Below are positions 18,978-23,891 of a DNA stretch of 28,988 nucleotides, in pieces. The notes under the pieces are model-generated. The model had not been told where the DNA came from and did not search any database. It saw nothing but the letters and a program-made list of their open reading frames with translations. A program made the position numbers and the translations under genes. The DNA comes from a virus. Each line of letters opens with the position of its first letter. Within the stretch, counting starts at the first letter, position 1. Location of the stretch: the IMG/VR virus record IMGVR_UViG_3300032214_000142, positions 1-28,988 of that record. One strand, given 5' to 3'.

Positions 18978-20864
18978 TTATGAATATGCTAGATCGAGTA
19001 ACAGTTTTTGTGTGACAAATCTATTTAAGCTATCATCCACGGAAAGTCCCACATCACCACCACTCATTGGTATAATTGCAGGTTTTCTTTGTGCACTTTG
19101 AGGAAGAGGAACCATTAATACATTATCTTTTTTCTCTCTTTTCAATTCTTTAACATCTCTTCCCTGTTCTACACTAATTTGTGCTGGTGCAGCAGATATT
19201 CTGCCTTTTCCGGGAACTGTAAATGAAGAATAGTTTGGTTTATTGGTTAATAAAATATACGAAACATATGGAGATGGATCACCATCACTTCCACCAGCAG
19301 AACTACCACGTTGTTTAGTATATTCAAAGTGAATATGTGGTCCAGTTGATGCTCCTGTACTACCAACTCTAGCAAAAGATCTCCCAGCAGGTACTTTACC
19401 ATTAGTGATAAAAAATCCAGCACAATGTCCAAATCTTAATTGAACTCCAAGTTCTGGAACCCATACATCAATAACTAATCCATATCCTGAATTGTGATCT
19501 GCTGGATTTTGCCAACCAGCAAACATTACCTCACAATCTACTCTTAAAGCAATACAAGTATTTGCTGGACATTGAATATCAATACCTGCGTGCTTTCTTC
19601 CATTGCCTCTAGGAGCACCCATCACATCACCAATCTGAATATATTGAACACCTCTTCCAATTGAGTCAGTTAAAATGTCATTAGGTCTTAAAGATCCTGT
19701 TCTAGTAATTTTGACTGATTCTTGTTTTTGTCCTGATGAGGGTTTAAAATCTTTAATAAATTTATTATGTTTTTCGTTTCTTTCTCTATAAACACTAGCA
19801 GCAGGTCTTTCCCACTCATCCATCCACCAATATGCTGCCTGTTCTGGAGAAGAAAATTGTGTTTTAAGGTATGCAGGACCTCTATCCTCACCAATAGCAT
19901 ATTTTATTTGACCCTTCCAGTTTGTTTTCCAATCGGGGACATTCTGTAAAAACGCTTGTTTTCTGCCAGCACTTGAATATTGAAACAATCCAATTCCCGG
20001 ACCATCAGGTTGTTTAGAGTCAATTCTAAATCCACTTTCGCCTTTAATATTTGCCAATATACCAAGTGCGTGAATATGAGGAACTCCCAGTTGTCTTAAG
20101 TATGAGTATCCAGCTTGAGGATTTAAAACTTTTCCACCACCAGTAGTTTCTTCTCTTGGAGATGTTGGTTGTTTAGGTGGAGTTGGTTCACCTGGTAAAG
20201 TAGGTTCTGCTTCAGGTCCACGAGTTCCCTCTTCAATTTGAAAGTCAATTGGTTCCGTAAGAATTTTAAGACCATCAAAAACTGAATCTTCCATTCTTCT
20301 GAATGAAGACTGCATCTGTTCCATTGCCTTGGACAGTCTACCCTGAGAATCTGTAAAATCAAGAGAAATTAAATTACGTGTTACTCCATCTAATAATTGC
20401 CCAAATCCAAATAGAAACTGAGTTGTATCACGAATAAACGTTGACATTACCGTTGTAAGTCTCTGAATTCTATTGATTAACTCTTCCCCCAATCGTATAA
20501 TTGTTGGTAAATTAACAAGTGCCCAACCAACTAATAAAGTTCCAATGTAATCTAGTATTCTTCCCAGAAATCCTTTAGTACTATTCATCACGACTTTTCT
20601 GGTTCTGCGAATCGCTCCAGTAACTCCAGATGCTTCAACAATATCTTCTTGCTCTCTTCTTCTTACTGCTTCTTGTCTTTTTTGAAATAAACCTGCTCTA
20701 GTTGAAATTCCTTGTCTTTTAGTTTCATTTCTTCTTGATATTGATTGGGAGAGAGATAATGCCGATCCTTGTGCTCTTTTAATTCCCCTCCCAAGAGAAG
20801 ACACACTTCTCTTAATGTTAGAAACACTAATTGATGACTTATATGCTACAGTAGAATTTGCCAT
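18978..20864 (-). CDS. Tail-tip murein hydrolase: lysozyme-like plus M23 peptidase domains (628 aa)
   Basis: Residues 1-95 are basic and helical. Residues 98-122 form a hydrophobic segment (I-G-T-L-L-V-G-W-A-L-V-N-L), and a helical linker and a P/E/T-rich hinge (about 213-245) follow. About 250-375 match the phage tail lysozyme-type fold with E276 (I-K-G-E-S-G-F) as likely acid and G-P-G-I-G-L-F-Q-Y-S. Residues 410-535 are an M23 zinc endopeptidase with all ligands present: H425-x3-D429 (H-A-G-I-D) and H510-x-H512 (G-P-H-I-H-F-E-Y), with H480 as the further active-site His. Together they would cut both glycan and peptide bonds of host peptidoglycan as DNA enters. It lies between the tape-measure-like gene and gp27-like hub gene, supporting a place at the tube tip. 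Confidence 0.85.
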   Translation of the reverse strand: MANSTVAYKSSISVSNIKRSVSSLGRGIKRAQGSALSLSQSISRRNETKRQGISTRAGLFQKRQEAVRRREQEDIVEASGVTGAIRRTRKVVMNSTKGFLGRILDYIGTLLVGWALVNLPTIIRLGEELINRIQRLTTVMSTFIRDTTQFLFGFGQLLDGVTRNLISLDFTDSQGRLSKAMEQMQSSFRRMEDSVFDGLKILTEPIDFQIEEGTRGPEAEPTLPGEPTPPKQPTSPREETTGGGKVLNPQAGYSYLRQLGVPHIHALGILANIKGESGFRIDSKQPDGPGIGLFQYSSAGRKQAFLQNVPDWKTNWKGQIKYAIGEDRGPAYLKTQFSSPEQAAYWWMDEWERPAASVYRERNEKHNKFIKDFKPSSGQKQESVKITRTGSLRPNDILTDSIGRGVQYIQIGDVMGAPRGNGRKHAGIDIQCPANTCIALRVDCEVMFAGWQNPADHNSGYGLVIDVWVPELGVQLRFGHCAGFFITNGKVPAGRSFARVGSTGASTGPHIHFEYTKQRGSSAGGSDGDPSPYVSYILLTNKPNYSSFTVPGKGRISAAPAQISVEQGRDVKELKREKKDNVLMVPLPQSAQRKPAIIPMSGGDVGLSVDDSLNRFVTQKLLLDLAYS

Positions 20865-20865
20865 C

Positions 20866-22173
20866 TTAGATCACTACGTTATAATGAACTTGTGAGTAAA
20901 GCACATAAAAATTATCTGGATTTGAACTTGCAATTGGTGGAAGATCTGCTATGTTTCCAGTTGCTGTAGGAATACTCTGCTGTTGTTGATTCATTCCAGC
21001 ATCAGTGACTATGACTTGAGTTTGTGATTCTGGTTCTGGTCCAATAGCAGAAGTGTCTGCCTTAGGTGGAGATGAAACTTTTGCCAATGGTTTAGCAACT
21101 ATATCTGCTTTATGAGATTCTTGGGTTTTGTCTTTACCACCACCCATTCCTATCATATTTGACATATCATTAAATGATTTTCCAATATCTAAATTAAAAT
21201 TAAATTGTGAAAGATAACTTTTAGCAGTATCGTATGTTTCTTTACCAAAGTTTGCGGATGGGCTATAAGCGGCAATGCCAGCAGCAACACCGGTCCCAGG
21301 AAGGGGAATTAAAGATCCTAGTCCGAAAGCAGCAGCAGATCCTACCATTCCTGCTCCTGCACCAGTAATTGCTCTTCCTGGTTCTTCTCCACCAGCAATA
21401 TCAAGTCCAGCCATTATTCCACCAATTACCATATTACTGGTAAAATTTAATTTTACACCACTAGGTTTTGATACTGCAGATGGTTTTGTTTTAGGTGGTG
21501 TTTTAGGTGGTGTTTTATCTTTATTAAAAACACCTTTAACTGCGTTTATTAACGCTTGAACAGGTCTTTTGAATAAACCAGAAAATACTGCCTGAGAAAT
21601 TAAAGAACCTGTTCTTAATAAACTTCCTGTTACTGCAGCAAGTCCGAGTTTAATCGATCCAAATATTGCACCAGTTATTGCAAGACCTTTAAGAACACTT
21701 TTACCAATGTCCTGTAATCTTTTCTTATTTCCTTCAGAGTATGCCTTTAATGCTTGTATCCCTTGGTTAAGCAACCATCCAGAAAGAAGAATAGTAAAGA
21801 ACCTCATTAAGTTTCCTAAGGTTCCTTGTGCTTTAGCTCCAACTTTCTGAATTGGTGCTGCTAAAGCACTTTGCATTTTTCTTTCGACTACACTTTCTTT
21901 TCCCTCTCTTAGTCTCTGTTCAGCAAGTTCTCTTTCCTGCTTTGCTTGCTGCTGTTCCTTTAGTCTTTCTAATGCAGAAGATTCTGCCATCAATCCAGAA
22001 ATTCTAGTTAAAGAATTACTGAACTCACTCATCTGAGTGGAAATTCTTACCAACTGAACATTAACTGCATCTAAAGAGGCTTGATTAGACACCAAAACTT
22101 TCATCGTCGTAACATCTTCTTGACTACGACCCATAAAAGTGGTAGGGGAAAGTCCGCCTCTATTTTCAGCCAT
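20866..22173 (-). CDS. Tape-measure-like tail protein (435 aa)
   Basis: Residues 20-105 are a long charged coiled coil (S-A-L-E-R-L-K-E-Q-Q-Q-A-K-Q-E). Residues 119-142 repeat the L-L-x-G-W-x-L-x-N/Q hydrophobic motif of the neighbouring hydrolase. Two glycine-rich hydrophobic stretches (about 158-190 and 248-305) could cross a membrane during injection, and the rest is low-complexity linker. This layout and its place directly after the gp26/gp51 genes fit a tail-length or tube-filling protein, the role of T4 gp29 (590 residues). It is short for that job, so it may share it with the 628-residue neighbour. ATG 22173 overlaps the end of the gp51-like ORF by eight bases, with AAGG as a ribosome site. 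Not similar to T4 gp29 by eye. Confidence 0.55.
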   Translation of the reverse strand: MAENRGGLSPTTFMGRSQEDVTTMKVLVSNQASLDAVNVQLVRISTQMSEFSNSLTRISGLMAESSALERLKEQQQAKQERELAEQRLREGKESVVERKMQSALAAPIQKVGAKAQGTLGNLMRFFTILLSGWLLNQGIQALKAYSEGNKKRLQDIGKSVLKGLAITGAIFGSIKLGLAAVTGSLLRTGSLISQAVFSGLFKRPVQALINAVKGVFNKDKTPPKTPPKTKPSAVSKPSGVKLNFTSNMVIGGIMAGLDIAGGEEPGRAITGAGAGMVGSAAAFGLGSLIPLPGTGVAAGIAAYSPSANFGKETYDTAKSYLSQFNFNLDIGKSFNDMSNMIGMGGGKDKTQESHKADIVAKPLAKVSSPPKADTSAIGPEPESQTQVIVTDAGMNQQQQSIPTATGNIADLPPIASSNPDNFYVLYSQVHYNVVI

Positions 22174-22339
22174 TTAACCTTTCTTTCAGGGTTTCTTCTT
22201 CAATGTATTGTTGGAGAAGAGAAAGATAAACTTCTCTTTCCCAAGGTATCATATTTTCTAGTTCTGTCAATGAGTATTTATGATGCTGCATCAAGGCAAA
22301 ATTTGTTTTATAGTATGACGCAAGATCTTCGTGCGCCAT
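22166..22339 (-). CDS. 51: gp51-like short ORF, likely 3' part of a frameshifted tail chaperone (57 aa)
   Basis: This ORF is too short for most gene finders. It reads MAHEDLASYYKTNFAL, continues through H-K-Y-S-L-T-E-L-E-N-M-I-P-W-E-R-E-V-Y and ends K-E-R-L-N-G. The P-W-E-R-E-V-Y centre is conserved in the small proteins placed after gp26 in cyanophages, which are usually labelled gp51 (from memory), although T4 gp51 is much longer (249). The ATG lies two bases after the gp26 stop and has no clear Shine-Dalgarno sequence. It is in the -1 frame relative to gp26, with the slippery site at 22348-22354. It may therefore be made mainly as the tail of a 298-residue gp26-gp51 fusion. Its last eight bases overlap the next start. 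Confidence 0.7.
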   Translation of the reverse strand: MAHEDLASYYKTNFALMQHHKYSLTELENMIPWEREVYLSLLQQYIEEETLKERLNG

Positions 22340-22354
22340 ACTTACCCGAAAAAA
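22316..22354 (-). promoter_or_regulatory. Candidate -1 programmed frameshift signal
   Basis: On the minus strand the gp26 codons TCT TTT TTC contain the heptamer T TTT TTC (22348-22354), in the correct X XXY YYZ phase. Then come a 9-base spacer (GGGTAAGTA) holding the gp26 stop, and a 7-bp stem TGGCGCA/TGCGTCA with one G-U pair and a 9-base loop (22316-22338). After slipping, the codons CGG GTA AGT lead straight into the ATG of the gp51-like ORF. Confidence 0.6.
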
Positions 22355-23061
22355 GATGCTAATCCTTCCAGCACAACCTCGCTTTCAACTCCAGTATTTG
22401 GATTAGTTATTTTGATAATATGAGATAGTTTAGGCATAGTCTCAAAGAATTTTTCAATATCTTTAAATTGCTTTGACCCTAACTGCTCAAGAAACTCACT
22501 CAACTCTTTCTTAGTGCAATCTGCTGCTGCCCAAGATTCTTCTTCAGAATAAACCTGTTCAATACAAGAGGAAATTAGATCAAACGTATCATCAACATCA
22601 ATTGCTTCTCCAACATTAAAATTACTCTTGACAAACTCATTCATTGATGGATACTTCATCCTAAGGGTTAGATTACCATCTAAGTTAATATCTCTACTAT
22701 GATCTGCACTGGTTTGAACTTTAATATCATCCAGATTAATCACTGTAGGAACTTTAGTTACCTCATCGTCTGGACAAGTAATCAAAACTTCTACTTCTTC
22801 ACCAACAGACTTGCCTCTAATGTTTAAGAAGATATATTCAATATCAAATGTAGAGAGTTCTTCTACTTTCACACCTTTAGTGATAATACAATTTGAAATT
22901 ACTGTTTTAACTGCTTCAGCAATTTGCTTATTATCCTCACTTTCCATTGCAATGATGAGGATTTTTTCTTCCTTAACTAAAAACGGTCTATACTTAATTT
23001 TCTTTTTAGATGAAGGAATTTCCAACTCATACGTTGGCGTAGCAATCTTTGGTAAAGGCAT
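22342..23061 (-). CDS. 26: gp26-like baseplate hub/tail assembly protein (239 aa)
   Basis: The N-terminal half (MPLPKIATPTYELEIPS, K-K-K-I-K-Y-R-P-F-L-V-K-E-E-K-I-L-I-I-A) matches the T4_baseplate family (PF12322) to which T4 gp26 (208 aa) belongs. Residues 78-100 have F-D-I-E-Y-I-F-L-N-I-R-G-K-S-V-G. The C-terminal half is helical. In T4, gp26 is needed for hub assembly. Here its place just ahead of the tape-measure-like gene, and a possible -1 shift at its end, suggest a tail-assembly chaperone role. A CATAAATA late promoter (23088-23095) lies 26 bases upstream and would start a long transcript reaching the hub genes. The last codons TTT TTC GGG TAA are part of the frameshift signal. Confidence 0.8.
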   Translation of the reverse strand: MPLPKIATPTYELEIPSSKKKIKYRPFLVKEEKILIIAMESEDNKQIAEAVKTVISNCIITKGVKVEELSTFDIEYIFLNIRGKSVGEEVEVLITCPDDEVTKVPTVINLDDIKVQTSADHSRDINLDGNLTLRMKYPSMNEFVKSNFNVGEAIDVDDTFDLISSCIEQVYSEEESWAAADCTKKELSEFLEQLGSKQFKDIEKFFETMPKLSHIIKITNPNTGVESEVVLEGLASFFG

Positions 23062-23087: not shown

Positions 23088-23095
23088 TATTTATG
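23088..23095 (-). promoter_or_regulatory. Late promoter-like CATAAATA
   Basis: CATAAATA on the minus strand, 26 bases ahead of the gp26 ATG and overlapping the gp54 stop codon. It would launch gp26, gp51 and the tail-core genes as a late transcript. Confidence 0.6.
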
Positions 23096-23891
23096 TGCCA
23101 GGAACACGTCTTGTGAATTCAGAATCATAATAGATTGGAGCATTAGGATTACTTGCATCCTCAGTTCTCTTATATCCAACTCCACTGCCGTGCTTGGCAG
23201 GAACAAATGAAGATGCTTGCCCCTGTGAATTAAGATTAATATTTGGTAACCCAATTTCTAAATTGTTAGAAGTTCCATTGTAGTAACTGAAACTATCAAC
23301 CTTACCAGCAACATACCTATCAAAGTTGAATGTGGCACTTGCTTTTAGAACTTCAGAAGTACCATAGTTTACTGGAATTGAATTCAATGCAACAGGGAAC
23401 ATACCAATGAATGTATATTCTACGCTATTATCATAATCTCTGTCAAATTTAATAATCTTTGTGTAATTTGTCTTATATTCGTCAGGATATCTCATCCTGA
23501 AATAATACCCTTCCCTCAATGGAGATTCTCCAGAACCATTAGCAATAAATTCAATCCAGTGCTCTAGAAACTTGAGTGTCTTATATTCCTTATCAACATA
23601 AAATTCCAATTCAATCTGAGTGAATAATCTAGTGTGTGCCATTTTTTCAGCAACACCCATAAAGTTACCAACAATATCTGCTGTTCCTAAAGAACTTCCT
23701 GGTAGTGAAGCTGAACTACAGAGTAATCCTGCAGTCTCTCCAATGAATTGAAGATCAACGCCTCTACGGGCAAGATAAGACCTCAATAGTCCAGACAAAC
23801 CACCAAATACAACTTGATAATGTGAAGTCTGTGCAAGATTCGTAAAAGTTGGTTTAAAGTCTGATATCCTCTTGGGAGTTGGAGCTGGCAC
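23091..23891 (-). CDS. 54: gp54-like tail tube initiator of the baseplate (266 aa)
   Basis: The chain has the tail-tube fold pattern. A Y-Q-V-V-F-G-G-L strand opens it. C-S-S-A-S-L-P-G-S-S-L-G-T-A-D-I and F-M-G-V-A-E-K-M-A-H-T-R-L-F-T-Q-I-E-L-E-F-Y-V-D follow, then a F-L-E-H-W-I-E-F-I helix and V-E-Y-T-F-I-G-M-F-P-V-A-L-N-S-I-P-V-N-Y. These are shared by gp19-type tube proteins and gp54, which seeds tube polymerisation on gp48. Length (T4 gp54 is 320) and the nearby gp48 support gp54. The start is GTG 23891: an in-frame TAG lies 12 bases upstream and no ATG is available before the conserved region. A TCTAAATA box at 23920-23927 lies 28 bases upstream. Confidence 0.75.
   Translation of the reverse strand: MPAPTPKRISDFKPTFTNLAQTSHYQVVFGGLSGLLRSYLARRGVDLQFIGETAGLLCSSASLPGSSLGTADIVGNFMGVAEKMAHTRLFTQIELEFYVDKEYKTLKFLEHWIEFIANGSGESPLREGYYFRMRYPDEYKTNYTKIIKFDRDYDNSVEYTFIGMFPVALNSIPVNYGTSEVLKASATFNFDRYVAGKVDSFSYYNGTSNNLEIGLPNINLNSQGQASSFVPAKHGSGVGYKRTEDASNPNAPIYYDSEFTRRVPGT

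Follow-up and report, generated by a model that had tools for sequence, protein, structure and literature searches.

The window analysed here is a stretch of viral DNA of 28,988 nucleotides (IMGVR_UViG_3300032214_000142, positions 1 to 28,988) that carries on its minus strand the tail genes listed in Table 1. The gp26 frame ends in GCA TCT TTT TTC GGG TAA, and the junction with the next ORF, called gp51 in relatives, reads TAA GT ATG; the small ORF begins two bases past the gp26 stop, in the −1 frame. Its 57-aa product matches phrog_634, annotated as "baseplate hub assembly catalyst," and also aligns with positions 239–278 of phrog_150, the gp26 profile (E 1.8e-6), an indication that fused members are already part of that profile. 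The conceptual fusion of gp26 with the −1 extension has 298 aa, and the predicted 0/−1 junction peptide of the window type is ...SFFRVSMAHEDL....

The ORF directly downstream of gp26/51 is a tape measure by annotation in Cr30 and LIS04; in the window, a family search with the 435-aa ORF in this place was without match. The 435- and 628-aa ORFs (18978–22173, minus strand) have a common hydrophobic LLxGWxL motif in the N-terminal third and look as if they were a split or duplicated tape measure module; S-PM2 has a single 1167-aa ORF where the window has these two.

Table 1. Coordinates of the gp26/gp51 junction and neighbouring tail genes in the window.
Feature	Position	Strand	Remarks
Tail tube / tube initiator protein, directly upstream of gp26	23091..23891	-	PF23849, phrog_45
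gp26, zero-frame short tail assembly chaperone of the TAC-N type	22342..23061	-	239 aa; PF12322 T4_baseplate, phrog_150
Slippery heptamer T TTT TTC, in phase	22348..22354	-	read from sequence
gp26 stop codon TAA	22342..22344	-	lies in heptamer–hairpin spacer
−1 frame extension, C-terminal domain of predicted long form	22166..22348	-	phrog_634; 60 codons + stop after slip
57-codon ORF within −1 extension (gp51 of relatives)	22166..22339	-	own ATG
Hairpin 5′ arm	22332..22341	-	GTATGGCGCA; also holds ATG annotated as gp51 start
Hairpin loop	22323..22331	-	9 nt; two further pairs possible inside
Hairpin 3′ arm	22313..22322	-	TGCGTCATAC
435-aa ORF, directly downstream, tape measure position	20866..22173	-	by position and hydrophobic stretch only
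628-aa ORF, next in tail module	18978..20864	-	tail lysozyme and M23 peptidase domains

Slippery heptamer among relatives

An earlier note on this DNA had proposed a correctly phased T TTT TTC at the end of gp26 and a −1 slip into the 57-codon ORF at its own ATG, giving 298 residues; the heptamer, its phase and the fused product were all confirmed. Of 256 related loci with readable junctions, 253 retain an in-phase T TTT TTN (T4, Ackermannviridae-type phages, and Vibrio K444, which have no perfect heptamer or another gene arrangement, were left out of this count), the three exceptions being distant Listeria-phage types whose small ORF is read in a different frame. In tandem gp26/51 relatives of the cyanophage type, gp51 is always in the −1 frame, and the survey found none of this type that lacks the heptamer; apart from the three Listeria-phage loci, the departures that the note had named as contrary evidence, gp51 in other frames or no heptamer, did not appear in this count. 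The closest 80 viral contigs and the window all have TTTTTTC in phase and the small ORF in −1, while upstream silent sites and the gp26 stop (TAA, TAG, or TGA) vary among them. The same arrangement occurs in S-PM2, P-SSM2, S-SSM7, P-HM1, Syn33, Vibrio nt-1, Stenotrophomonas DLP6, Delftia PhiW-14, Aeromonas phiWae14, Pelagibacter Mosig, and Methylophilales Melnitz-2, and with variant heptamers in Sinorhizobium phiM7 and Caulobacter Cr30 (TTTTTTT) and Rhizobium AF3 (TTTTTTG); scans for nt-1-like and Listeria-like relatives yielded two loci each only.

Codon choice at the site is invariant over 166 non-redundant loci: TTT serves as the first Phe codon in all of them (166/166; TTT usage elsewhere is 73%), and the preceding codon always ends in T (166/166), whether it encodes Ser, Asp, Ala, or Asn. 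Among the other Phe codons of gp26, taken as a control, 366 of 1790 (20%) have the T|TTT context, and among other FF pairs 6 of 164 do; the codon-usage figure of ~1e-60 assumes independent loci and should not be read as a true probability. The junctions have, as a programmed −1 frameshift should, an in-phase X XXY YYZ before the zero-frame stop that is conserved beyond codon usage.

More distant loci are organized differently. Listeria phage LIS04 (L103, 3150–3430) and two similar loci (L267, L268) have a distantly related gp26 homologue situated between the tail tube and tape measure genes, with a gp51-like small ORF in the +1/−2 frame after a GAGTTTTTTAGT-like sequence, which suggests a −2 (or +1) shift instead of −1. 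The Ackermannviridae-type phages Sa157lw (L092) and YC (L098) and Vibrio K444 (L089) have a gp51-like −1 frame after gp26, preceded by an imperfect heptamer (ATT TTC, GCT TTC, and CTT TTT, respectively); since TAATG overlaps occur at the gp26 stop of YC and K444, reinitiation or single-tRNA slippage may be in use at junctions of this type.

Downstream hairpin and −1 frame coding

The stem downstream of the heptamer comprises 10 bp with one G-U, or 11 bp counting an A-U pair (22342/22312), and is spaced 6 nt from the heptamer (5 nt if that pair is counted); the predicted fold energy is −16.5 kcal/mol (z = −3.6), as good a value being reached in 0/200 shuffles. The earlier description of a 7-bp stem with one G-U, beginning nine bases on and closing a 9-base loop, had the loop and the G-U right and the length and spacing wrong, the 7 bp being the inner part of a 10–11 bp stem that starts 5–6 nt past the heptamer. 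Over the 42 nearest non-redundant loci (297 codons), silent variability is lowest at the 3′ arm and the slippery site, where it amounts to 0.06 and 0.23 of expectation, respectively, vs. 0.81 for the whole of gp26; alignment of relatives revealed the pattern that the note had proposed to look for, with heptamer, phase, and stem preserved amid drifting silent sites on either side.

Across 39 distinct junctions, 96.4% of stem cells are paired (26–40% with the partner slid), and stem covariation is 0.121 vs. 0.037 ± 0.009 when shuffled. In 58 sequences, one stem pair appears as U-A (43) or G-C (15) and never as a mismatch; the tree requires at least 8 joint changes of this pair, 4 of them forced by well-supported branches. 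The pair joins a silent third codon position with the second position of another codon, and selection on the protein cannot account for such a linked silent/non-silent change. Stems unrelated in sequence are present in other clades (S-PM2 type, up to 16 bp; GCCTCT...AGAGGC type; P-HM1 type), and their 5′ arms have the same start, 5–6 nt past the heptamer. Stems begin at positions 11–13 from the first base of the heptamer in 88 of 150 cases (controls 12%), and 43% of 178 unique junctions fold better than all control windows of their own gene, the median rank within the gene being the 4.5th percentile. A stem of at least 6 bp is absent in 28 of these 178 junctions and ~40% lie outside the best-folding tenth of their own gene's windows; the stimulator is therefore not uniform. 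A structure 5–9 nt downstream with compensatory changes is strongly marked in the window's clade and more weakly in some others.

Conserved coding in the −1 frame is continuous with the heptamer. In 68 of the 166 loci, at least 48 nt of this frame, counted from the first base of the heptamer, are free of ATG, GTG, and TTG, and the start-less stretch still encodes conserved residues (RIALSHnsLENyf..NFALM); lacking a start codon, the beginning of the "gp51" domain in these loci would therefore be reached only by frameshifting. Annotation of gp51 from an internal Met is found in NC_015285, MT647606, and MZ577096 (45, 44, and 47 aa, respectively). In Mosig, Melnitz-2, and Syn33, annotation of this kind truncates the conserved domain; it is probably due to the missing upstream start codon.

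T4 homologues and other tail chaperones

T4 gp51 (249 aa) aligns to the profile of the fusion over 241 columns, across the junction (probability 99, E 1e-18). T4 gp26 aligns to the gp26 part only, its comparison with the C-terminal domain being negative, and PF12322 is matched by both T4 proteins. T4 gp26 thus corresponds to the short form and T4 gp51, end to end, to the putative frameshift product, and T4 therefore uses both forms; unlike in the window, the two are encoded in T4, Thanatos-2, and Aes012 by separate, divergently oriented genes, for which no frameshift is needed. On this sequence evidence, T4 gene 51 (L099, 94–843; also L085 and L086) is a paralogue of gene 26 in fused, long form, duplication and fusion appear to have replaced the frameshift in the T4 lineage, and the small "gp51" appears to be the tail end of a longer version of the chaperone. 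Short and long forms with a common N-terminal part accordingly exist as separate genes in T4 and, by predicted joining of frames, in the window.

In the AlphaFold model of gp26 (pLDDT 85), built from sequences of the window and IMG/VR alone, the top structural matches of residues 1–96 are HK97 gp13 (Z 8.0), Rbstp2171 (8.0), and YqbN (7.2), and the next match has Z 5.0; PMC9603447 treats all three as tail assembly chaperones. The likeness of the modelled domain to its best match, HK97 gp13 (PDB 2OB9; rmsd 4.0 over 84 residues, 10% identity), has a Z of 8, the edge of what the structural aligner counts as meaningful, and gp26, unlike gp13, has an extra C-terminal half. The chaperone fold was found for the N-terminal domain of gp26 only, where the top three matches are such chaperones at Z 7.2–8.0. 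Foldseek with a T4 gp51 model returned nothing meaningful, and VIA-align of the Foldseek list no chaperone; when solved structures were searched by sequence, neither gp26 nor T4 gp51 found a convincing relative. A weak structural likeness to the gp26 chaperone domain (Z 5.0) was observed for ORF19 of a Vibrio cholerae PICI-like element (PDB 5ir0), which, by this model comparison, may be a satellite's mimic of a tail chaperone.

Work by Levin in 1993 and by Xu, Hendrix and Duda in 2004 reportedly described lambda gpG/gpGT and a conserved tail-gene frameshift of tailed phages. As in lambda G/GT, a short and a long chaperone would come from one message through a −1 slip shortly before the short gene ends, and the locus follows a tail tube gene and precedes the putative tape measure position; unlike in lambda, the heptamer is T TTT TTC, a hairpin follows 5–6 nt downstream, the protein belongs to the PF12322 family, and the tail is contractile. 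The lambda analogy had been drawn in the earlier note, and the modelled fold, the gene position, and the separate long and short genes of T4 now back it. Another parallel is the myovirus tail chaperone of the Vandenendeviridae phage Adele, which has a −1 frameshift at a T-rich site (GTTTTT), with the downstream frame open in all relatives (PMC12846349); Adele belongs to another phage family, and hairpin covariation is not among the features reported in the available part of that paper.

Frameshifted tail chaperones are a known kind, and the novelty of this case is limited. For T4-like phages with one short and one long fused gene, the authors of PRFect refer to Vladimirov, Gautam and Davidson (2022), and the cyanophage case may be partly described there. 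The earlier note's suggestion that the case may be undescribed is doubtful, since two papers refer to Vladimirov et al. (2022) on tail chaperones of T4-like phages, and one of the two does so for their poly-T frameshift signals. As far as checked, the present work adds the covarying hairpin with its turnover, the test for start codons, and the wide reach of the survey.

Probable production and meaning of a long form

The reading that we favor, with a probability of roughly 0.9, is that −1 ribosomal frameshifting makes short and long tail assembly chaperones from one message; as sequence evidence, the conserved signal, the covarying hairpin, the start-less −1 coding, and the fused T4 homologue argue for it. 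Most ribosomes would stop at the TAA and yield the short chaperone, gp26 of 239 aa; at T TTT TTC, both tRNA-Phe would re-pair one base back in a tandem slip promoted by the 10–11 bp hairpin, and a minority of ribosomes would continue into the "gp51" frame to make the 298-aa long chaperone. By analogy with lambda GT, the long form should bind the tape measure protein through its C-terminal domain. We infer such binding, as well as slipping at a useful rate and the ratio of the two forms.

Alternatively, gp26 and gp51 could be two proteins, gp51 being made by termination-reinitiation at the ATG two bases past the stop. Some separate translation is possible in the window, where gp51 has its own ATG; an ATG lies 15 nt past the heptamer start in 57 of 166 relatives, and the records of S-PM2, P-SSM2, and S-SSM7 annotate gp51 in this way. 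We nevertheless regard two separate proteins as improbable: the invariant T TTT TTN and the covarying hairpin, which buries the gp51 ATG, are left unexplained, as are the 68 relatives with conserved coding but no start codon and the records forced to an internal Met at the cost of the conserved domain. Less probable still is that RNA polymerase, rather than the ribosome, slips on the T run. The run is of six T, and of seven in some relatives; six T is short for slippage by a bacterial polymerase, the phase fits a tandem tRNA slip in every case, the base 3′ of the run is nearly always C, and the downstream hairpin stands at ribosomal spacing.

Very remote is the explanation that heptamer and stem merely reflect protein constraint (FF, SMAHEDLxSY) or short divergence, with no frameshift. 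The FF residues are indeed conserved family-wide, but protein constraint can fix neither TTT over TTC nor a third-position T in four different preceding amino acids, and it cannot give concerted silent and non-silent change in separate codons; codon choice and the concerted stem changes already contradict it.

For the wider T4-like supergroup (cyanophages and phages of Vibrio, Sinorhizobium, Caulobacter, Stenotrophomonas, Pelagibacter, and Methylophilales), we lean modestly toward a joint reading in which the frameshift is general and probably ancestral, the two-gene state of T4 is derived by duplication and fusion, and cyanophages have no free gp51. This reading, with the same modest preference, includes at least four stimulator hairpins of unrelated sequence at one spacing and a "gp51, baseplate hub assembly catalyst" that is not a free protein. 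Frameshifting at this junction would correct the gp26/gp51 annotation in hundreds of marine phage genomes, explain the odd, tiny gp51, and tie the T4 hub "catalyst" gp51 to the lambda tail chaperone system; it would also provide a well-sampled natural series of frameshift signals in which the heptamer and the spacing are fixed and the stem sequences differ.
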